From contig JAQGOF010000047.1 of NCBI GenBank assembly GCA_028293745.1, positions 1 through 64,000 on the forward strand: 64,000 nt of DNA, given 5' to 3'. Under the pieces are notes generated by a model. It was given only the letters and a program-made list of their open reading frames with translations, had not been told where the DNA came from and searched no databases. The position numbers were made by a program, and so were the translations under genes. This document shows, in pieces, positions 27,828 through 36,940 of the stretch (the first letter of the stretch is position 1; each line of letters opens with the position of its first letter). This DNA is from Gammaproteobacteria bacterium (lineage in GTDB: Bacteria > Pseudomonadota > Gammaproteobacteria > Steroidobacterales > Steroidobacteraceae).

Positions 27828-28280
27828 ATGAGACGCATTTGCGAGTTCGGCCGCGCGCTTGCCTTCGCTTGCGCGCTGATAGGGCCGGCGCAGGCGGCTG
27901 AGCTGAGCGAGCTGGATGGTCTGCAGGGCAGAGTCGTTTATCTGGACTTCTGGGCTTCCTGGTGCGAGCCGTGCCGGCAATCATTTCCCTGGATGCAGCG
28001 AATGAAGCAAAGCTATGAGACGCGTGGCTTGACCATCATCGCGGTGAACCTGGATCACGATCGCGCGGATGCTGAATCTTTTCTGAAGCGTCTCAACCCG
28101 GATTTTGAAATTCGCTTCGACCCGGGCGGGAAATGGGCGGAAAGATTCCAACTTCGTGGTATGCCCACGAGCGTCGTCATAGACCGCCACGGCGTCGTGC
28201 GGTTCACCCACGTTGGATTCCGCCCTGATGATGGGCGGGAGTACGCCCGGCAGATCGAAGAGCTGTTGGCGGAACACTGA
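27828..28280 (+). CDS. TlpA-like periplasmic thioredoxin
   Basis: A 150-residue exported thioredoxin-fold protein. A signal peptide (ALAFACALIGPAQA) precedes the domain. The redox site is WCEPC (C46, C49), and the cis-Pro loop is GMPTSVV. The insert typical of TlpA/ResA proteins is present (VNLDHDRADAESFLKRLNPDF). ATG 27828 is used, although its GGAG is far upstream; GTG 27798 is an alternative. It is the first gene of a cluster with the DUF4266 lipoprotein (17 bases downstream), the DUF3570 protein and an ApbE flavin transferase. A role in reducing periplasmic disulfides for that cluster is inferred from position. Confidence 0.88.
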   Translation: MRRICEFGRALAFACALIGPAQAAELSELDGLQGRVVYLDFWASWCEPCRQSFPWMQRMKQSYETRGLTIIAVNLDHDRADAESFLKRLNPDFEIRFDPGGKWAERFQLRGMPTSVVIDRHGVVRFTHVGFRPDDGREYARQIEELLAEH

Positions 28281-28296
28281 ATGAGGGAGGTCGAAG

Positions 28297-28527
28297 ATGG
28301 CGAGACGCAAATGTATTCTTTTGTGTGAGCTCATCGCGCTGTGCTCACTGACAGTGGGCTGCAGCTCAGTGGGGGTGAAACCGTGGCAGCGCGAGCTGTT
28401 GTCACGCCAGGATATGCGGCCCGCTGGCAACGGTCTGGATGAGGCAATCGATGACCACATGTATTTCAGCAAGGAAGCTTCATCGGGCGGCCGATCTTTC
28501 GGCGGCGGAGGTTGTGGATGCAATTAG
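28297..28527 (+). CDS. DUF4266 lipoprotein
   Basis: A 76-residue predicted lipoprotein with GGGAGG before its ATG. The lipobox LTVGC gives C22 as the lipidated residue. The mature part contains the DUF4266 signature VKPWQRELLSRQDM, DDHMYFSKEASSGG, and the C-terminal GGGGCGCN with two Cys separated by one Gly. The function is unknown. The family is usually encoded next to DUF3570 and ApbE genes, as here. The final codons overlap the start of the DUF3570 gene by 10 bases, so translation is coupled. The terminal Cys pair could bind metal or be a thioredoxin substrate; both are inference. Confidence 0.85.
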   Translation: MARRKCILLCELIALCSLTVGCSSVGVKPWQRELLSRQDMRPAGNGLDEAIDDHMYFSKEASSGGRSFGGGGCGCN

Positions 28528-29834
28528 GCGCCGATGCTGGAAGCCTGCGTCGAAGGTTGATCGCCGCGAGCTGTGCGCTTCTCGGGTCGTCCGCGGCTCG
28601 TGCCGGGCAGGGTTCCTTCACAGAGCAGCTCGGACGGTTGATGGAGGACTGGAAGATCCAGTCGGCACTGGCGTACTACCGGGAGGACGGCCGCATACAG
28701 GCGATCGAGCCGGTTATCAGTGCGGTTCGGGACTTATCCGACGGCGGCAAGCTCGCTCTGAATTTCACCTTCGACAGCCTGTCGGGGAGTAGTCCAAATG
28801 GGGCGCTTCCGAGTCATGTCGCACAGACATTTGCCTCGCCATCCGCCAAGAGCCTCGCGAGTGCGCGCCACTTGTACACGATTTCCCCTGGGCGCTTGCC
28901 GGCAGATCCCCATTACAGTGACGCTCGCGTTGCCGGTGGGGCCGACTGGACACTTGCACTTTCCAGGCTCACACGTCTGAATGTGGGTGGAAAGTTCTCG
29001 TACGAGGATGATTTTTACTCTGCCACTGTCAATGCCGGCGTGGAGCAGGACTTCAATGACAAGAACACCACGGTATCGTTGGGAGTCAGCAGTGAAAATG
29101 ACTTCCTGCAGCCCATCGGCGGAGCTCCCGCGCCGCTCAGCGACTACAGCTTATTCCAAAAGGGCGGGCACGAGACCAAGCGCGGCCAGGGGCTGCTGCT
29201 CGGCCTGACCCAGGTCATGAGCCGCAACTGGCTGTCCGAGGTCAATCTGTCGTTGGATCGATTCTCGGGATATCTGAATGATCCTTACAAGCTCGTCTCG
29301 GTTATCGACGCCGCTGGCGATCCCGCCGCGTACGTTTACGAGAACCGGCCCGGGTCCCGTACCCGAAGAAGCGTTTACCTGGACAATCGTGTCGCCTGGG
29401 AGCGCGCGTCCGTTGGTCTCGCACTGCGCTACATGACCGATACGTGGGGTATCCATTCGGATACTGCGCAGTTCAGACTGCGTTGGTGGGCCCCGGGAAG
29501 GGACCAGTACTTCGAGCCGAGCGTGCGGTGGTACCGGCAGTCGGCGGCGGACTTCTACAGACCCTGGATCGCAGCGGATTCCGCCCAGGAAAACTATGTG
29601 TCCGCCGATTCCCGGCTGGCGGCGTTTCACGCCCTGACATTCGGGCTGAAGTACGGAATCGGGCTGACCGATCGCCTCGGCGGAATTGGCCGGCAAGGAG
29701 CTGAATTCAACGTTCGGCTGGAATATTACCAGCAGACGATTCAGAACGGACCGGTCGCGCCCGCGGCGCTGCAGGGACTCGACCTGTACCCCAGTCTCAA
29801 AGCCGTGCTGCTGCAGATTGGCTTCAACTACTGA
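28518..29834 (+). CDS. DUF3570 outer-membrane-type protein with a flavinylation-like motif
   Basis: A 438-residue exported protein. ATG 28518 is chosen because GGAGG lies six bases upstream inside the preceding gene. The signal peptide runs to about AARAGQG. The mature chain has alternating polar/aromatic strands, ends in GFNY, and looks like a beta barrel. DUF3570 proteins have no assigned function. Residues 86-92 read DSLSGSS followed by PNGA, resembling the D-x-x-(S/T)-G-A-(S/T) site to which ApbE attaches FMN, except that the Ala is Ser. An ApbE gene follows immediately. That this protein is flavinylated is inference. Confidence 0.82.
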   Translation: MQLGADAGSLRRRLIAASCALLGSSAARAGQGSFTEQLGRLMEDWKIQSALAYYREDGRIQAIEPVISAVRDLSDGGKLALNFTFDSLSGSSPNGALPSHVAQTFASPSAKSLASARHLYTISPGRLPADPHYSDARVAGGADWTLALSRLTRLNVGGKFSYEDDFYSATVNAGVEQDFNDKNTTVSLGVSSENDFLQPIGGAPAPLSDYSLFQKGGHETKRGQGLLLGLTQVMSRNWLSEVNLSLDRFSGYLNDPYKLVSVIDAAGDPAAYVYENRPGSRTRRSVYLDNRVAWERASVGLALRYMTDTWGIHSDTAQFRLRWWAPGRDQYFEPSVRWYRQSAADFYRPWIAADSAQENYVSADSRLAAFHALTFGLKYGIGLTDRLGGIGRQGAEFNVRLEYYQQTIQNGPVAPAALQGLDLYPSLKAVLLQIGFNY

Positions 29835-29856
29835 CAGGGATCCTGCAGGTCCTATT

Positions 29857-30729
29857 CTGCTGGAGCAACGCGAGAGCGATGTCATTGCCGTCCGATTCAG
29901 CGCAATGGCCGGTCCTTGCGAGGTGCTGCTGCCCACGACGGAGCATAGCGCGCGCGAGCTGGGCGAGGTCGCAGCTGTTGAAGCATGGCGCATCGAGAGG
30001 AAGTACAGTCGCTATCGTAAGGACAGCGTCCTGGCCTGGATCCACGCCCAGCGGGGGTCCACTGTACGCCTCGATGAGGAGACCGCCTCGCTCATCGACT
30101 TCGCCCAACAATGTTTTGAGATCAGTGATGGGCTGTTCGACATTACCTCCGGAATCCTGCGGCGCGCGTGGAAATTCGACGGTTCCGACCGTGTTCCGGA
30201 TGCCGCCGCCGTGCAGAGTCTTCTGCCCCTCATCGGGTTCAATAAGCTTCGCTGGCGCAGCCCGTTCCTGACGGTACCCGATGGGATGGAGCTGGATCTG
30301 GGGGGCCTGGGCAAGGAGTATGCAGTCGACACGGCCTATGACCTGCTCATGGCCCGCAGTCCCGTGCCATTCCTGGTCAATTTCGGCGGCGATCTGCGCG
30401 CCAGCAGGCCATTGCCCCATGGACCCTGGAAAGTAGGAATCGAGCGCCCGGGTGCTGTCCAGAACGCCGCGATGATGTTGGATCTCGAATACGGAGCGCT
30501 TGCAACCAGCGGCGACTCGCACCGATTTCTCCTCAAAGATGGCGTGCGCTTCGGCCACGTGTTGGATCCGCGCACGGGCTGGCCGGTCCCGGATGCGCCG
30601 CGTTCGGTCACAGTCGCAGCCAGCAGTTGCACTGAAGCGGGACTGCTGTCCACGCTTGCGATGTTGAAGGGGGCTCAGGCACAGCGGTTTCTTCAGGAAC
30701 AGGCAGTACGATACTGGCTGCTCCGCTGA
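29857..30729 (+). CDS. ApbE-type FAD:protein FMN transferase, start uncertain
   Basis: A roughly 290-residue ApbE-family enzyme that transfers FMN from FAD to Thr/Ser of target proteins outside the cytoplasm. Family motifs are LDLGGLGKEYAVD, NFGGDLRA, ATSGDSHRF and HVLDPRTGWPV; the metal/flavin region near CTEAGLLSTLAML is also present. The first ATG in frame is 29905, but family-like sequence (DVIAVRFSAMAGPCEV) extends before it. No ATG, GTG or TTG exists between the DUF3570 stop and that point. CTG 29857 or 29860 with CAGG upstream is the best guess, so the entry begins there. No signal peptide is visible. It is the last gene of the redox cluster. Confidence 0.82.
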   Translation: MLEQRESDVIAVRFSAMAGPCEVLLPTTEHSARELGEVAAVEAWRIERKYSRYRKDSVLAWIHAQRGSTVRLDEETASLIDFAQQCFEISDGLFDITSGILRRAWKFDGSDRVPDAAAVQSLLPLIGFNKLRWRSPFLTVPDGMELDLGGLGKEYAVDTAYDLLMARSPVPFLVNFGGDLRASRPLPHGPWKVGIERPGAVQNAAMMLDLEYGALATSGDSHRFLLKDGVRFGHVLDPRTGWPVPDAPRSVTVAASSCTEAGLLSTLAMLKGAQAQRFLQEQAVRYWLLR

Positions 30730-30927: not shown

Positions 30928-30967
30928 GTGCACGTCGGGGCGGCGAGCCTGCGTGTAATTGACCGCA

Positions 30968-31684
30968 ATGCCCTCACGTATTCTCATCGTGGAGGACGAT
31001 CTGCGCGCACGTGCGCTGCTCGAAGAGTTCCTGGTACGGCACGGACTGTCGGTCACCACCCTTGGCAGTGGGGAGCAGGTCGCCGAGGTTGTCTCCCGAG
31101 AGTGCGTCAGTCTCGTATTGCTCGACGTCATGCTTCCGGGGGAGGACGGCTTGTCGATCTGCAAGCGTCTGCGCGCAACCGGCGCCAAAGTCCCTGTCAT
31201 CATGTTGACCGCCAAAGCAGAGACCGTGGATCGGATCGTAGGCCTGGAAATCGGTGCCGACGACTACGTGGTCAAACCCTTCGAACCTCGGGAGCTGCTT
31301 GCCAGAATTGGGGCGGTACTGCGCCGGCATGACGGGCGCGCCACCCCGGACGCACCTGGCCATTCACGCCTGGTGCATAGCTTCGGACCTTTCGAGCTCG
31401 ATGTGGACCGGCGCAGGCTGACCAGGTCGGGACAGGTCATCGTACTGACGAAGGGAGAGTTCGCCGTACTCGAGGTCTTGAGCAGTCATCCGCGCCAACC
31501 GCTGTCGCGGGAGCGCTTGTTCAAGCTTTCGCGTCATCGCAGCTTCGTCATCGCGGATCGCAGCATGGATATTCAGATCTCCCGGCTGCGCCGCCTGATC
31601 GAGGTTGACGTTTCGCGGCCCTGTTATATCCAGACCGTGTGGGGCTTCGGATACGTATTCGTTCCGGAGGGGGACGCACAGTGA
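30968..31684 (+). CDS. OmpR-family response regulator
   Basis: A 238-residue response regulator. Its receiver has acidic pair E9/D10/D11, phospho-Asp D53 in LLDVMLPGEDG, Thr in MLTAK and Lys in VVKPFEP. The C-terminal winged helix (FELDVDRRRLTRSGQVIVLTKGEF; VWGFGYVF at the end) is of the OmpR type. ATG 30968 begins the receiver strand; the TTG nine bases upstream is less likely. Its stop overlaps the GTG of the sensor kinase gene. It follows the redox cluster by 238 bases and is the best candidate to regulate it, though that link is positional only. Confidence 0.93.
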   Translation: MPSRILIVEDDLRARALLEEFLVRHGLSVTTLGSGEQVAEVVSRECVSLVLLDVMLPGEDGLSICKRLRATGAKVPVIMLTAKAETVDRIVGLEIGADDYVVKPFEPRELLARIGAVLRRHDGRATPDAPGHSRLVHSFGPFELDVDRRRLTRSGQVIVLTKGEFAVLEVLSSHPRQPLSRERLFKLSRHRSFVIADRSMDIQISRLRRLIEVDVSRPCYIQTVWGFGYVFVPEGDAQ

Positions 31685-32976
31685 GACGCATATCCAATCG
31701 TCTCCTGGTCCGGACAGCGTTGTTGTTTGCCCTGCTGCTGATAATCAGTCAGGTCGCGTGGATTGCCGTGGGCAGCCTCATCTTTCTCAAACCGCTGCGC
31801 GTCGGGTACGTGACGCAACTGGCAACGTACGTGAAGCTGGCTCGGTCGGCGCTGGCGTCAATGCCCCGCGACGCCCGTCCTGCGTTTCTGGAACAGGTGA
31901 ACGGGCAGTCCAGCATCAGGGTCATGCCCATCTACCCCCCGTACGGTGAGGCGGCGGCGCCGGACCGGGAATTCCCCCCACCCATGGCGACGAGTCTGCG
32001 CAGCATAGCGGGCAATGACGTGAGCGCGAGAATGGGCAATCCGGAAGCGAATACGTGGATTCGTTTCGTGGCCGATAGCCAGCCCTATTGGCTCGTCGTT
32101 TCCCCAGGCCGTCCCCGGTTCCCGGTCCCACTGATCACATCGGTCGTGATCGCATTGGTCGTTTCAAGCGGTGGCGCCTACTTGTTGCTCGCCCCGTTGA
32201 ACCGCCGGCTACATGCGGTGTTGGATGCCTTTCGCGCCATCGGCAGGGGGGAAATACCTGCGAAGGTGGCGGTCGAAGGTCCGGAGGAAATACGGGAACT
32301 GAGCCGGGGTTTCAATCAAATGAGCGAAGGACTTCAGCGACTGGATGCCGAGCGCCGACTCATGCTGGCCGGGATCTCGCATGACCTGCGCTCGCCGCTC
32401 GTGCGGTTGCGCCTCAATGTCGAGTTGAGCAAGCCCGGGCTGGATTCCACCACTGCCGGTGCGATGGTCAGGGACATCAAAGAGATCGATGCGATTCTTG
32501 GTCAGTTTCTCGAGTTCGCACGCGACGAGTCGGGCGAGCCTTCGCAACAATGTGACGTCAATGCCGTCGTGTCAGAGGTATGCGCTGGTTATCAACTGTC
32601 CGGCCACGATGTCAATACGGTGCTCCGGCCGGTAGGGCTTGCAAATCTGCGCGTGGTCGGCGTCCGGCGTCTGGTCACGAATCTCGTGGATAACGCGGTG
32701 CGTTACGCAGAGAAGGAAATAGAGGTTGCGACGAGCCGGAACGACGACGACCACATTGTTGTGACCGTCGAGGATCGGGGCCCCGGCATTCGAACTGTCA
32801 GTCCCGATGCGCTGATCAAACCTTTCGCGCGGGAAGATGTTTCCCGCAGCAAGCCCGGTTCGGGACTCGGACTGACCATGGTCGACAGGATAGCGCGCGC
32901 ACACGGGGGTTCCGTCAAGCTCATGAACCGTCCCGACGGGGGGCTCCTGGTTGTCGTGACCCTGGGCGCCCAATAA
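31681..32976 (+). CDS. EnvZ-like sensor histidine kinase
   Basis: A 431-residue inner-membrane sensor. GTG 31681 overlaps the regulator's stop (GTGA). It has helix 1 (TALLFALLLIISQVAWIAVGS), a periplasmic region of about 110 residues, helix 2 (PLITSVVIALVVSSGGAYLLL), a HAMP domain, an H-box with His234 in GISHDLRSPL, and a HATPase domain (NLVDNAVRYA, DRGPGI, GSGLGLTMV). This layout matches EnvZ and relatives. The periplasmic sensor region is Pro-rich and has no named domain. Partner of the OmpR-type regulator. Confidence 0.93.
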   Translation: MRRISNRLLVRTALLFALLLIISQVAWIAVGSLIFLKPLRVGYVTQLATYVKLARSALASMPRDARPAFLEQVNGQSSIRVMPIYPPYGEAAAPDREFPPPMATSLRSIAGNDVSARMGNPEANTWIRFVADSQPYWLVVSPGRPRFPVPLITSVVIALVVSSGGAYLLLAPLNRRLHAVLDAFRAIGRGEIPAKVAVEGPEEIRELSRGFNQMSEGLQRLDAERRLMLAGISHDLRSPLVRLRLNVELSKPGLDSTTAGAMVRDIKEIDAILGQFLEFARDESGEPSQQCDVNAVVSEVCAGYQLSGHDVNTVLRPVGLANLRVVGVRRLVTNLVDNAVRYAEKEIEVATSRNDDDHIVVTVEDRGPGIRTVSPDALIKPFAREDVSRSKPGSGLGLTMVDRIARAHGGSVKLMNRPDGGLLVVVTLGAQ

Positions 32977-33068: not shown

Positions 33069-34385
33069 TCAGCGGTCCTTGCGCAGAGTCCCATTCACTG
33101 GCGAGCTTCCGCCGCCCGCCATGAACATCGTGTACACCCCGGCGGCGTCCAGTGTGAGGGTCGTCTTGGTCAACAGGGTGGCAGACGTGGTTGTATCGAT
33201 GACATCCACCTCGTTGTTCGTCCCGCTGGCGAATTGCGCCAGGGTGGAAGCCGTTCCCAGCGTCACACCCGTGGCGCCCGTCTGGAAGTTGACCAACAGA
33301 GTCAGCGGGTCTCCGAGCCCGGACATGCCATTGAGCATCCGCACCCTGGACTTGCTGGCGAGGCTCGCGGGCAAGGTGTTATCATCGGCGATCAGGGTCG
33401 TCTGCGTGCCGCTCGAATTGCTCCAAACCAGGAACGTGTAATCTCCGCCCGCCGCGAGTGTCTGATTCGGGACAGTAACCGCCGTGCCGTCCACGTTGAG
33501 AGTGAACGGCAGGCTGCCAGCATTGACCAGGGTATACGTACCGCCGATAACGCCGACCGTGGCGTTAGTCAGTATGTTCGCACCGCTGACGGTGACATTG
33601 ACGGCCGTTCCGTTTGCGATGCCTACTGCGCCACGAACGCGCGCTTGCGTAGTGTTATATGTCGTGAGAGAGCCTTGCTGAGGCAGGAGAGACACGTTGA
33701 CGAGCATGCCTCCCGTGGTCGAAGTGAGTAGCAGCGAATTAACGCTCGTGTCATTGAAGGTCACCTGCGCCACGTCCGCCCGTAAGTCGCTGGTGTTTCC
33801 GGTCCCGATCACGCGCACGCGATAGTTGCCGCTGGTCACCGTTATCGTGGAGGTACCTCCCGCGGCGATGTTGCTGATGAGCGCGGAGGCGTTTACCAGG
33901 TCCGTGGTGCTGTCGGTCAAATACACATCCACGTTGCCGGCTTCGGAGGCGTTGATCACGCTCACCTTGGTGTAGCCGGTGTTTGCGCTGGCCTGATCTT
34001 CGCCTATCTTCACCGTCGCGAAGTTTCCAGAGGAGCCATAGCCCACATACGTGGTATGCGAGCTATCCGTCAGGTTCTCGCTGCCGTCAGTCGCCAGCGC
34101 ACTCGACACGCCATTTTTCCGGAACTCCAGCGAATAGGTGCCCGAACCGATCGCCGCGTAATTGCTGACGGTCTCGTACGCCACCCCCTGCATCTGGGCA
34201 GTGTAGTTCGGAGTGGTGTTACCGTTATTGCTCGCGTACAGGTCGAGCGAAGTGTATCCAGTGCTCACATTCAGCAGACGCACGTTGGCCGTGCCGCTGC
34301 TACCGTTGCCGCAACCGCTGAGGCTTACAACAGCGGCTGCCAGCATCGCGGCGACGCTGATCGGAGGACGAAATGTGCTGCGCAT
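33069..34385 (-). CDS. DUF4397 surface lipoprotein
   Basis: A 438-residue predicted lipoprotein with lipobox LSGC (C25) followed by GNGSSG. The mature part is Ser/Thr/Asn-rich, beta-strand-rich and contains two DUF4397-type repeats (ANVRLLNVSTGYTSLDLYASN; TKVSVINASEAGNVDVYLTDS). The family is found in exported proteins of unknown, possibly adhesive, role. ATG 34385 is taken as the start because it begins the signal peptide; upstream in-frame codons give unrelated Arg/Pro-rich sequence. It is expressed leftward, away from bamA. The unusually high Thr/Ser and low Cys/Trp content fits a secreted protein. Confidence 0.82.
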   Translation of the reverse strand: MRSTFRPPISVAAMLAAAVVSLSGCGNGSSGTANVRLLNVSTGYTSLDLYASNNGNTTPNYTAQMQGVAYETVSNYAAIGSGTYSLEFRKNGVSSALATDGSENLTDSSHTTYVGYGSSGNFATVKIGEDQASANTGYTKVSVINASEAGNVDVYLTDSTTDLVNASALISNIAAGGTSTITVTSGNYRVRVIGTGNTSDLRADVAQVTFNDTSVNSLLLTSTTGGMLVNVSLLPQQGSLTTYNTTQARVRGAVGIANGTAVNVTVSGANILTNATVGVIGGTYTLVNAGSLPFTLNVDGTAVTVPNQTLAAGGDYTFLVWSNSSGTQTTLIADDNTLPASLASKSRVRMLNGMSGLGDPLTLLVNFQTGATGVTLGTASTLAQFASGTNNEVDVIDTTTSATLLTKTTLTLDAAGVYTMFMAGGGSSPVNGTLRKDR

Positions 34386-34504: not shown

Positions 34505-36940
34505 TCAGAACGCATTGCCGATCGAGAACTGGAAGATTTCGGTCTGGTCTCCCCAGCGGGTCAGGGTGTCGTGCTGATACTTGAGCGGGATGCCGAGGCT
34601 GAACCGGAACAAACCCAGCGGCGCGAGCCACTGCACGGCGATGCCGGCCGAGGTGCGCATCTGATTGAGATCGAACCCGTACTTGATGACATTGTTTTCC
34701 TTGTCCTTGAAGACCGTATTGCCGAGGAAGAACGCCTGTCCGAAATCGAAAAACAGGCTCGCGCGCAGGCTGCTCGCGAACTTGGACGGCACTGGCAGGA
34801 TCGCCTCGAGCTGGCCGGACAATGCGGCATCGCCACCGTAGGGATTGGCGAGCGAGTCGCGCGGACCGAGCGTCAATTCCCTGAAGCCGCGCACCGAATC
34901 TGGGCCGCCCACGAAGAAGTGCTGGTTCGGCGGCAGGGCCGTGGTGGACCCGAGCGCCGTCCCATAGTTGGCGCGGGTGTTGAACATGAGAGGCACGAAT
35001 GACAGGTACGGCAGGTGAAAGAACTGCTGGTACTGGTAGGCGGCCGTCAAGAATTGCACGGACGTACCGGGGATGGTCGAGGTCACCATCAGGCTGCTCG
35101 TGGTACCCGACGTCGGAAAGAGCGTGCGGTTGCGGCTATCGAAGCTCCACCCGGCAGTGAGTTCGACCATGTCCGCACGCGTGCCCCAAACGGCAGCGGT
35201 CCCGTCGGGCCTGAAGTACGAGTTGCCATTCAGGCGGACCCAGTCCTGAATCTGCTGCGATGTATAAGAGGGCGCGAGGTACTCGGCGTGCTGGCCTGAG
35301 ACACCCAGTCTCACGGCTTGCCACTCCGTGATCGGATAGCTGAAGTCGAGCCCTGCCTGGTAGCTCGTACTGGAAAAGCTCGAGAAGGACGAGGTGAGCT
35401 GGCTTTGGTCCATGTAGGACAAGCTGACCGTACGGCTCAATCCGTCAGTGCTCACGTACGGATCTGTCTGCGAGATGCTGTAGACCTTGCTGTAAGCACC
35501 TCCGCTCAGATTGACGGCGACTCGCTGCCCCGTGCCGAGAAAGTTCGCCTCGGTGAAGTTGCCATTGAGCATAATTTTGTAGGCTTGGGAATAACCGATG
35601 CCACCACTCAATTGCGCGCTGGGACCGTCCTGGACCTTGAAGTTCACGTCGACGAGGTCGGGCGAGCCCGTGACCGGAGTCGTCTCGGAGTCCACCGACT
35701 TCACGTACGGCAAGCGCTGGATGCGCTGCTTCGAGCGCTCGAGCGAGGTGTTGGACAGCCAGCCGCCTTCGAGCTGGCGCATCTCCCGCCGCAGTACCTC
35801 GTCGTTGATTTTGTTCGACCCGGAGAACGTGATATTGCGCACGTAGACGCGATTGCCCGGGTCGATGAAGAAGGTGAGCGACACTTGGTGGGTCGCGTTG
35901 TCCGGCGTGGGCACGGGGTCGGCCTTCGCAAACGCATAGCCGTCCTGGCCCAGGCGGTTTTGAATCAGCTCCTGCGTGGAGGTGATGAGCTTCCGGTTGA
36001 AGGTTTGTCCGGGCTGCACCAGCAGCAGCTTCTGAAGCTCCGACCGCGGCACTACGAACGTGCCCGCCATCTTCACATCGGAGACCTTGAAGACGTCTCC
36101 TTCCGAGATGTTCGCCGTGACGAAAATGTCGTCCTTCTCGGGAGCGATCGCCACCTGGGTTGATTCGATCTGGAAGTTCGCGTAGCCGCGATCCATGTAG
36201 AAGTTGCGCAGTCTTTCCAGGTCCCCCTGCAGGGACTCGCGCGAATAGCGGTCGTCCTGCTTGTACCAGGAGAGCCAGTTCGGGGTCTTCAGCTCGAAGC
36301 TGTCCAGGACCTCCTTCTGCGGATACTGCGTATTGCCCACCACGTTGATCTGCCGGATCTTCGCGCGCTTGCCTTCCGTGATGTCGATCTTGATCTTCAC
36401 GCGATTACCGGATTCCTCCTCAACGTGCGTGTCGACTTTTACAGCGTACTTGCCGCGGCTGAAGTACTGGTCTGTGAGGTATTGCGTGACGTCCTCGAGC
36501 ACCGAGCGGTCGAAAGTCTTACCGGCGGCCAACCCAACGTTGCGCAACGACTTCTGCAGGTCCTCGGTCTTGACGTCCTTGTTGCCAGTGATCTCGAAAC
36601 TCTCGATTGAAGGTCTCTCCAGCACGCTTACGATGAGGTTATTGCCATCGCGCCGTAACTGGACGTCGCGGAAGAAACCGGTCGCATATAGCGCGCGGAT
36701 GGACTCGCGCACGCGCTTGATGTCCAGCGTGTCGCCGATGTTCACCGGCAGATAGTTGTAGACCGTGCCTGCGGACACACGTTGCAGACCGTCGATAGTG
36801 ATGTCGGTAACTTTGAAGTTGGCAGGATCCGTGATGGGTGCATCCTGAGAGCGTGCAGCACTGGCATACAGCGCAAGGACCGCTGTGGCGGGCGCGACGA
36901 GCGTCAAAACGCGACGTACGCGCCAGAAAAGAATGCTCAT
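34505..36940 (-). CDS. bamA: BamA outer-membrane assembly factor
   Basis: An 811-residue Omp85 protein that inserts beta-barrel proteins into the outer membrane. A signal peptide (VLTLVAPATAVLALYASAARSQ) is followed by five POTRA domains (about 40-430), the first reading FKVTDITIDGLQRVSAGTVYNYLPV. A 16-strand barrel follows. The loop-6 motif VRGF is at 683-686, and the chain ends in Phe as outer-membrane proteins do. In most Gammaproteobacteria bamA sits with rseP, skp, lpxD and fabZ; none of these are here. It may therefore be a second copy or a relocated gene. A divergent secretin gene starts 198 bases away. Confidence 0.92.
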   Translation of the reverse strand: MSILFWRVRRVLTLVAPATAVLALYASAARSQDAPITDPANFKVTDITIDGLQRVSAGTVYNYLPVNIGDTLDIKRVRESIRALYATGFFRDVQLRRDGNNLIVSVLERPSIESFEITGNKDVKTEDLQKSLRNVGLAAGKTFDRSVLEDVTQYLTDQYFSRGKYAVKVDTHVEEESGNRVKIKIDITEGKRAKIRQINVVGNTQYPQKEVLDSFELKTPNWLSWYKQDDRYSRESLQGDLERLRNFYMDRGYANFQIESTQVAIAPEKDDIFVTANISEGDVFKVSDVKMAGTFVVPRSELQKLLLVQPGQTFNRKLITSTQELIQNRLGQDGYAFAKADPVPTPDNATHQVSLTFFIDPGNRVYVRNITFSGSNKINDEVLRREMRQLEGGWLSNTSLERSKQRIQRLPYVKSVDSETTPVTGSPDLVDVNFKVQDGPSAQLSGGIGYSQAYKIMLNGNFTEANFLGTGQRVAVNLSGGAYSKVYSISQTDPYVSTDGLSRTVSLSYMDQSQLTSSFSSFSSTSYQAGLDFSYPITEWQAVRLGVSGQHAEYLAPSYTSQQIQDWVRLNGNSYFRPDGTAAVWGTRADMVELTAGWSFDSRNRTLFPTSGTTSSLMVTSTIPGTSVQFLTAAYQYQQFFHLPYLSFVPLMFNTRANYGTALGSTTALPPNQHFFVGGPDSVRGFRELTLGPRDSLANPYGGDAALSGQLEAILPVPSKFASSLRASLFFDFGQAFFLGNTVFKDKENNVIKYGFDLNQMRTSAGIAVQWLAPLGLFRFSLGIPLKYQHDTLTRWGDQTEIFQFSIGNAF

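Follow-up and report, generated by a model that had tools for sequence, protein, structure and literature searches.

Clusters that combine the flavin transferase ApbE with the protein families DUF3570 and DUF4266 have been described by Meheust et al. 2021 (PMC8238504), the only paper in the literature searched that mentions either of the two DUF families. In the sections of that paper available here, a typical DsbD cluster also encodes ApbE, DUF3570 (in 227 clusters), DUF4266 and a thioredoxin-like protein, and the four families occur without DsbD in 316 clusters. The DUF3570 protein of Chlorobium luteolum was flavinylated by its cognate ApbE when the two were co-expressed in Escherichia coli, with most of the DUF3570 found in the pellet; two [ST]GA[ST] motifs were reported both for this protein and in the family logo, and redox cycling of the CXC motif of DUF4266 was proposed (PMC8238504). 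Genes with neither a signal peptide nor a lipidation site were dropped from that survey of extracytosolic flavinylation. Here we describe such a four-gene cluster in a stretch of 64,000 nucleotides (the window) from contig JAQGOF010000047.1 (C234) of a Steroidobacteraceae gammaproteobacterium, whose genome (GCA_028293745.1) comprises 6.9 Mb in 259 contigs and is 91% complete. Judging from sequence comparisons, its new element is a lineage of ApbE that is tied to one type of DUF3570 and has neither a recognisable export signal nor the Asp of the proposed catalytic triad.

The genes for TlpA, DUF4266, DUF3570 and ApbE lie in tandem on the + strand at positions 27828-30729, and the reading frames of DUF4266 and DUF3570 share 10 bases (28518-28527); gene calls and Pfam matches thus bear out the tight packing and overlap given in the initial annotation. 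A scan of named genomes with nine DUF3570 queries of the window's kind (type I) confirmed 158 loci, from which we retained the best 80. The suggestion that co-occurrence of the four families be checked was rewarded with a shared gene order in 66 of 81 type-I loci (the window plus L085-L164), and several of the 15 that deviate from it run into contig ends. Metagenome-assembled genomes of gammaproteobacteria, some labelled Steroidobacteraceae, hold the nearest named relatives of the window DUF3570. The cluster had been read as a flavin electron-transfer system with uncharacterised components: DUF3570 flavinylation by ApbE fits and the outer-membrane barrel is backed by an AlphaFold model, but the components were wrongly called uncharacterised, since even the available sections of PMC8238504 describe them. 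The basic interpretation as a flavinylated redox system is therefore right and already published.

Export signal and active site of the linked ApbE

The ApbE gene (29854-30729, + strand) matches PF02424 at 2.5e-61, with 208 bits against a cut-off of 25.6. Its start is uncertain: there is no ATG, GTG or TTG where the ApbE genes of relatives begin, and possible starts are ATT at 29854 and CTG at 29857 or 29860, or else ATG at 29905 or an upstream TTG at 29686. The ApbE fold starts 46 bases past the DUF3570 stop codon, and no signal peptide was found ahead of it in a search that went back as much as 90 bases into the DUF3570 gene; a signal concealed upstream of the start was rejected because no candidate precedes the fold. 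Among 81 type-I ApbE rows, representing 74 distinct places, a crude rule for export signals gave no hit for 63 and, for the 18 remaining, picked up only segments of the ApbE fold, mostly the first strand. The same rule was positive in 77 of 82 TlpA rows and 73 of 89 DUF3570 rows from type-I loci. This comparison indicates that the type-I ApbE branch is without a recognisable export signal.

Triad positions were set by alignment to PDB 7esa, whose Ser237, His253 and Asp281 are each numbered 20 lower than the Ser257, His273 and Asp301 named for FmnB, the Asp belonging to a proposed catalytic triad (PMC12052999, in the part available); from this constant offset we infer that 7esa is FmnB. In the window ApbE the Ser (30508-30510, + strand) and His (30556-30558, + strand) are kept, and Gly occupies the site of the Asp of canonical ApbEs (30640-30642, + strand). 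The same pattern runs through the type-I rows: the Ser is present in 78 of 80 (the remaining 2 have Gly), the His in all 79, and every one of the 78 rows that reach the Asp site has Gly there. The initial annotation noted neither this replacement nor the missing export signal. The position beside the replaced Asp is rich in Asp, Glu and Gln, with Glu in 41 rows and Gln in 30. For comparison we used 32 other ApbEs, namely the 30 best-scoring ones fetched from the order, one on contig C214 of the same genome and one from Hymenobacter. The Asp is present in all 32 and a hydrophobic N-terminal segment in 31 (L172 is without it); the Hymenobacter protein has Ala in place of the triad Ser. Another ApbE of the window's genome, on contig C183, has the Asp yet no obvious signal, and because of this protein the missing signal and the missing Asp appear to be separable oddities. 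At this C183 locus (L004) the ApbE gene (1018-1779) is accompanied by an open reading frame (1823-2404) with a signal-like start and, by eye, an FMN-bind-like D-I-x-x-I-A-G-A-T; it is perhaps a second signal-less ApbE beside an exported substrate. The literature search returned no account of an ApbE that lacks a signal yet serves an exported barrel, nor of Gly for Asp in this branch.

The variant ApbEs are also held together by descent and by genomic company. Of 61 ApbEs picked by hand for a tree, the 37 type-I rows fall on one side of a branch with support of 99/93; the placement of the long Vibrio row is uncertain, and the remaining 36 type-I rows stand at 100/97. We then surveyed 229 genomes of the class, separating high-scoring (type-I) from type-II DUF3570 at 160 bits and defining variant ApbE as >200 bits, both thresholds being set after the data had been seen (the best scores show gaps between 168 and 154 and between 221 and 176, respectively). 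Variant ApbE was present in 34 of the 229 genomes and DUF3570 in 60, and all 30 of the best variant-ApbE places fetched have Gly at the triad site. The variant occurs in 31 of the 32 genomes with type-I DUF3570 versus 3 of the 197 others (Fisher p 9e-34, which overstates the association because the genomes are related). One genome (G200) has type-I DUF3570 without the variant, and two (G204 and G340) have the variant with low-scoring DUF3570 only. In 20 of the 30 best places a DUF3570 gene lies <=1.5 kb away, and in 3 more it lies in the wider fetched stretch. Within this sampled class, the idea that the variant is a general cytoplasmic ApbE finds no support, as 33 of the 34 genomes that carry it have some DUF3570, against 27 of the 195 others.

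DUF3570 and its proposed thiol partners

The DUF3570 gene (28518-29834, + strand; PF12094, 5e-109) encodes 438 amino acids counted from the ATG at 28518. Residues 86-92, D86-S-L-S-G-S-S92 (28773-28793, + strand), had been likened to the ApbE target in the initial annotation, and the alignment proposed there as a check upholds the likeness. Of the 89 type-I DUF3570 rows aligned, 87 extend over the motif, leaving 80 once duplicates are removed: the relaxed form D-x-x-[ST]-G-x-[ST] is seen in 77 of the 80 (L094, L111 and L126 are the exceptions) and the strict D..[ST]GA[ST] in 53, while Leu at position 3, Gly at position 5 and Ser or Thr at position 7 are each found in 80 of 80. The window motif itself has Ser where [ST]GA[ST] has Ala. 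Kept to this extent among distinct relatives, the motif is not a product of chance. ApbE attaches flavin mononucleotide (FMN) to the last Ser or Thr of its motif (PMC12052999, available part), so the predicted acceptor is S92 (28791-28793) rather than S89 at motif position 4, and the S89A mutant proposed in the initial annotation would change the wrong residue for loss of FMN. As for a second FMN site, the adjacent xxGA has the [ST]GA[ST] form in 0 of 80 type-I proteins (the rest of the protein was not searched), and we rejected the P-N-G-A-L of the window as such a site, its Asn and Leu occupying the required positions.

An AlphaFold2 model of residues 30-438, built from 82 aligned DUF3570 sequences, of which four are type II, has a predicted local distance difference test score (pLDDT) of 93.8, a predicted template modelling (TM) score of 0.89 and 16 strands of at least 11 residues, so that DUF3570 is predicted to be a 16-stranded outer-membrane barrel. 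Foldseek searches with the model returned outer-membrane channels, with a best E of 3.7e-11 and TM scores to the query of at most 0.51 among the 50 matches listed; these appear to share the barrel architecture, and none is close. In the model, long loops alternate with short turns. The motif, residues 57-63 of the mature protein, runs from the last part of strand 3 into the longest loop (61-104). The N-terminus of outer-membrane barrels is, as a general rule, periplasmic, and the long loops are expected to face outward. With the motif where strand 3 passes into the longest of these loops, the flavin would sit at the outer mouth of the barrel or in its lumen.

The signal region of DUF3570 (28518-28604, + strand) contains a Cys, residue 19, and is weakly hydrophobic in the type-I family: median hydrophobicity is 1.93 for type-I DUF3570, 2.50 for TlpA and 2.38 for type II, in a comparison not controlled for phylogeny. 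The Cys lies in A-[ST]-C-x-L-L (28557-28586), is kept in 63 of the 80 distinct type-I rows and is odd for a signal peptide. Beta-barrels are not usual substrates of twin-arginine translocation (Tat), and Tat export of a pre-folded DUF3570 flavoprotein was rejected as a general route, with RRx[FILVM] in just 19 of 82 type-I N-termini.

Upstream, the first gene of the cluster (27828-28280, + strand) encodes a TlpA/ResA-like thioredoxin with a signal-like N-terminus and WCEPC; it matches the Pfam Redoxin family at 6.1e-20, and the ResA subfamily model at 2.2e-24, under that model's cut-off. The second (28297-28527, + strand; PF14086, 4.6e-20) encodes a DUF4266 lipoprotein of 76 amino acids, whose C-terminal end, GGGGCGCN, was confirmed by the gene call as first annotated. 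Its C-terminal Cys-Gly-Cys-Asn (28513-28524, + strand) is a proposed thiol/disulfide or metal site, and in 98 of 98 DUF4266 rows (types I and II, not de-duplicated) this CGCN is terminal or one residue short of the terminus. A loose lipobox pattern is present in 88 of the 98; in the window the N-terminal TVGC-S resembles a lipobox, and the Vibrio homologue has a signal-like start and no lipobox-like one. A DsbD gene lies directly downstream of the cluster in a Vibrio plasmid record. None was found among the genes scanned beside the window cluster; elsewhere in the same genome, contig C165 carries a DsbD_TM match at its end, and C181 a weak, sub-cut-off match.

Proposed flavinylation before export and its rivals

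We favour, with a probability of roughly 0.5, an outer-membrane flavin/thiol relay in which a dedicated cytoplasmic ApbE flavinylates DUF3570 before export. DsbD would reduce TlpA, TlpA would pass electrons on to the lipoprotein DUF4266, at its C-terminal C-G-C, and DUF4266 may in turn pass them to one FMN bound covalently to S92 of the DUF3570 barrel, by which route they could cross the outer membrane. The dedicated ApbE would remain in the cytoplasm and modify the unfolded DUF3570 precursor with cytoplasmic flavin adenine dinucleotide (FAD), and the FMN-bearing precursor would then be exported and inserted as a barrel with the FMN in place. Of these elements, we infer the pre-export timing, the activity of the variant ApbE, the path and direction of the electrons and their final acceptor.

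Flavinylation before export is favoured because the type-I ApbE is signal-less, forms one tree group and co-occurs with type-I DUF3570, and because the motif and the standard gene order are so widely kept, with DsbD downstream in the Vibrio plasmid. It is favoured further because the C. luteolum DUF3570 was flavinylated on co-expression though it was mostly in the pellet, because type-I DUF3570 signals are less hydrophobic, as expected for post-translational export, and because the Sec channel is reported, in the part of the source available, to widen to about 22 Å (PMC5963308). Other observations pull away from it. No complete type-I row has the triad Asp, so transferase activity is not assured; export signals were called by the crude rule rather than by SignalP; the experimentally active C. 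luteolum ApbE may lie outside the signal-less branch; and the literature covered yielded no electron-transfer tests on these proteins. The gene pairing is also imperfect: one genome (G182) has variant ApbE but lacks any DUF3570 match, no DUF3570 lies in the stretch fetched around 7 of the 30 best class-level variant-ApbE places, and eight type-I loci (L116, L126, L135, L140, L144, L150, L159 and L160) have no ApbE in theirs, several being cut by contig ends. Finally, the window's own genome encodes the signal-bearing ApbE on C214.

This genome also carries a second, divergent DUF3570 locus, a type-II copy on contig C144 (L065), which we compared with L066-L074, L083 and L084 (12 stretches in all). 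The type-II operon holds DUF4266, DUF3570, small outer-membrane proteins, in most cases TlpA and, in 11 of the 12 stretches, a CxxCH lipoprotein of ~900 residues, one member of which, when scanned, matched HZS_alpha (hydrazine synthase alpha middle domain). The motif site reads S-S-A-S in 10 of 12, S-G-A-S in one and T-S-A-S in the genome's own copy. A lower-confidence model of type-II DUF3570 (pLDDT 81.4, 17 sequences) has 16 long strands and the motif at strand 3. ApbE occurs in 2 of the 12 stretches (L073 and L074), both proteins having the Asp and a hydrophobic N-terminus, and the signal rule applied from the start codon passes L073 alone. The C214 ApbE groups with that of L073 (98/88), and L074 is included only at 89/41. 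In Hymenobacter, a signal-bearing ApbE with the Asp is paired with an S-S-A-S DUF3570. At slightly less than even odds, the type-I ApbE branch has moved into the cytoplasm as a dedicated maturase that flavinylates its barrel before export and dispenses with the canonical Asp, while the same cell may use a second, periplasmic route for the divergent DUF3570; flavin placement on outer-membrane barrels would then be divided between compartments.

These signal-bearing enzymes bear on the strongest alternative, an unlikely one, that DUF3570 is flavinylated in the periplasm before barrel assembly, either by the linked ApbE, if some unrecognised route takes it there, or by a signal-bearing ApbE encoded elsewhere in the genome. 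The C214 protein in the same genome, the Hymenobacter pairing and the type-I loci that have no local ApbE all fit it. However, the C214 ApbE groups with a type-II-linked protein and apart from type I, and the signal-less linked ApbE, kept in nearly every type-I genome of the class survey, would have nothing to do or would depend on an unknown exporter.

A somewhat less probable alternative is that the type-I ApbE is no FMN transferase at all, and instead acts as a chaperone, hydrolyses FAD or works on some other cytoplasmic substrate. The invariant Gly for Asp points this way, the equivalent Asp being a metal ligand in E. coli Ftp (Asp283; PMC4767422, available part) as well as a member of the proposed triad in PMC12052999. 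Yet the triad Ser and His are kept, the substrate motif is kept with its acceptor, ApbE is linked to DUF3570 and co-occurs with it, and the neighbouring position rich in Asp, Glu and Gln could replace the lost Asp. The least probable is metal handling, in which CGCN would bind copper or iron, TlpA would keep the metal reduced and the flavin barrel would reduce or import it: invariant CGCN, an MbnP-family gene (cluster C23) two genes downstream of the type-I cluster in L075 and L076, with its possible copper link, and the 25 published DUF3570 clusters with the VIT1 iron transporter (PMC8238504, in the sections available) speak for it, but among the genes scanned next to the window cluster none was recognised as a metal gene, a thiol relay accounts for TlpA and DsbD equally well, and the idea rivals the relay part alone, being compatible with flavinylation before export.

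Neighbouring genes and comparison with known systems

Genes for the OmpR/EnvZ-type pair noted in the initial annotation do follow the cluster, an OmpR-like response regulator (30959-31684, + strand), beginning 229 bases past the ApbE stop, and an EnvZ-like sensor kinase (31681-32976, + strand), both identified by profile matches. The comparison does not support the pair as a component of the system: related genes flank only one other (L077) of 20 compared stretches. A gene for a DUF4397 lipoprotein-like protein (33069-34385, - strand) adjoins the EnvZ-like gene, and near the barrel cluster lies a gene for a BamA-like Omp85 protein with five POTRA matches (34505-36940, - strand). The genome has five Omp85 matches altogether, and the BamA-like one is a candidate for the main BamA.

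Modification of exported proteins by ApbE is usually assumed to take place outside the cytoplasm. If flavinylation before export is true, a chain bound for export can traverse the inner membrane with a covalent flavin attached, periplasmic FAD supply would not be limiting for this branch, and signal-less ApbEs could not be dismissed as serving cytoplasmic proteins alone. The signal-less lineage also makes flavin loading of an outer-membrane barrel directly testable.

Compared with the clusters of Meheust et al., the window shares the four families, the CXC at the end of DUF4266 and DUF3570 as the ApbE substrate, here a predicted one. It differs in having one predicted FMN site, whereas the C. 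luteolum DUF3570 has two, in having no adjacent DsbD, and in its signal-less ApbE with Gly for the triad Asp, a trait unmentioned in the available sections of PMC8238504. The cytoplasmic ApbE of Klebsiella pneumoniae is likewise without a signal peptide, but its substrate is a soluble fumarate reductase (PMC12052999, available part), whereas the substrate linked to the window ApbE is an exported, predicted barrel. With the canonical periplasmic ApbE, Ftp and FmnB, the window ApbE has in common the fold family and the triad Ser and His, and it departs from them in its lack of a signal or lipid anchor, its Gly for Asp and its shorter C-terminus. In porin-cytochrome conduits of the MtrCAB type, electrons cross the outer membrane via a barrel, with haem proteins as the wire. 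Where those conduits use a wire of haem proteins, the window system is predicted to carry one covalent flavin on the barrel itself, which would make this 16-strand barrel, with its defined residue S92, a very small candidate for outer-membrane electron transfer.

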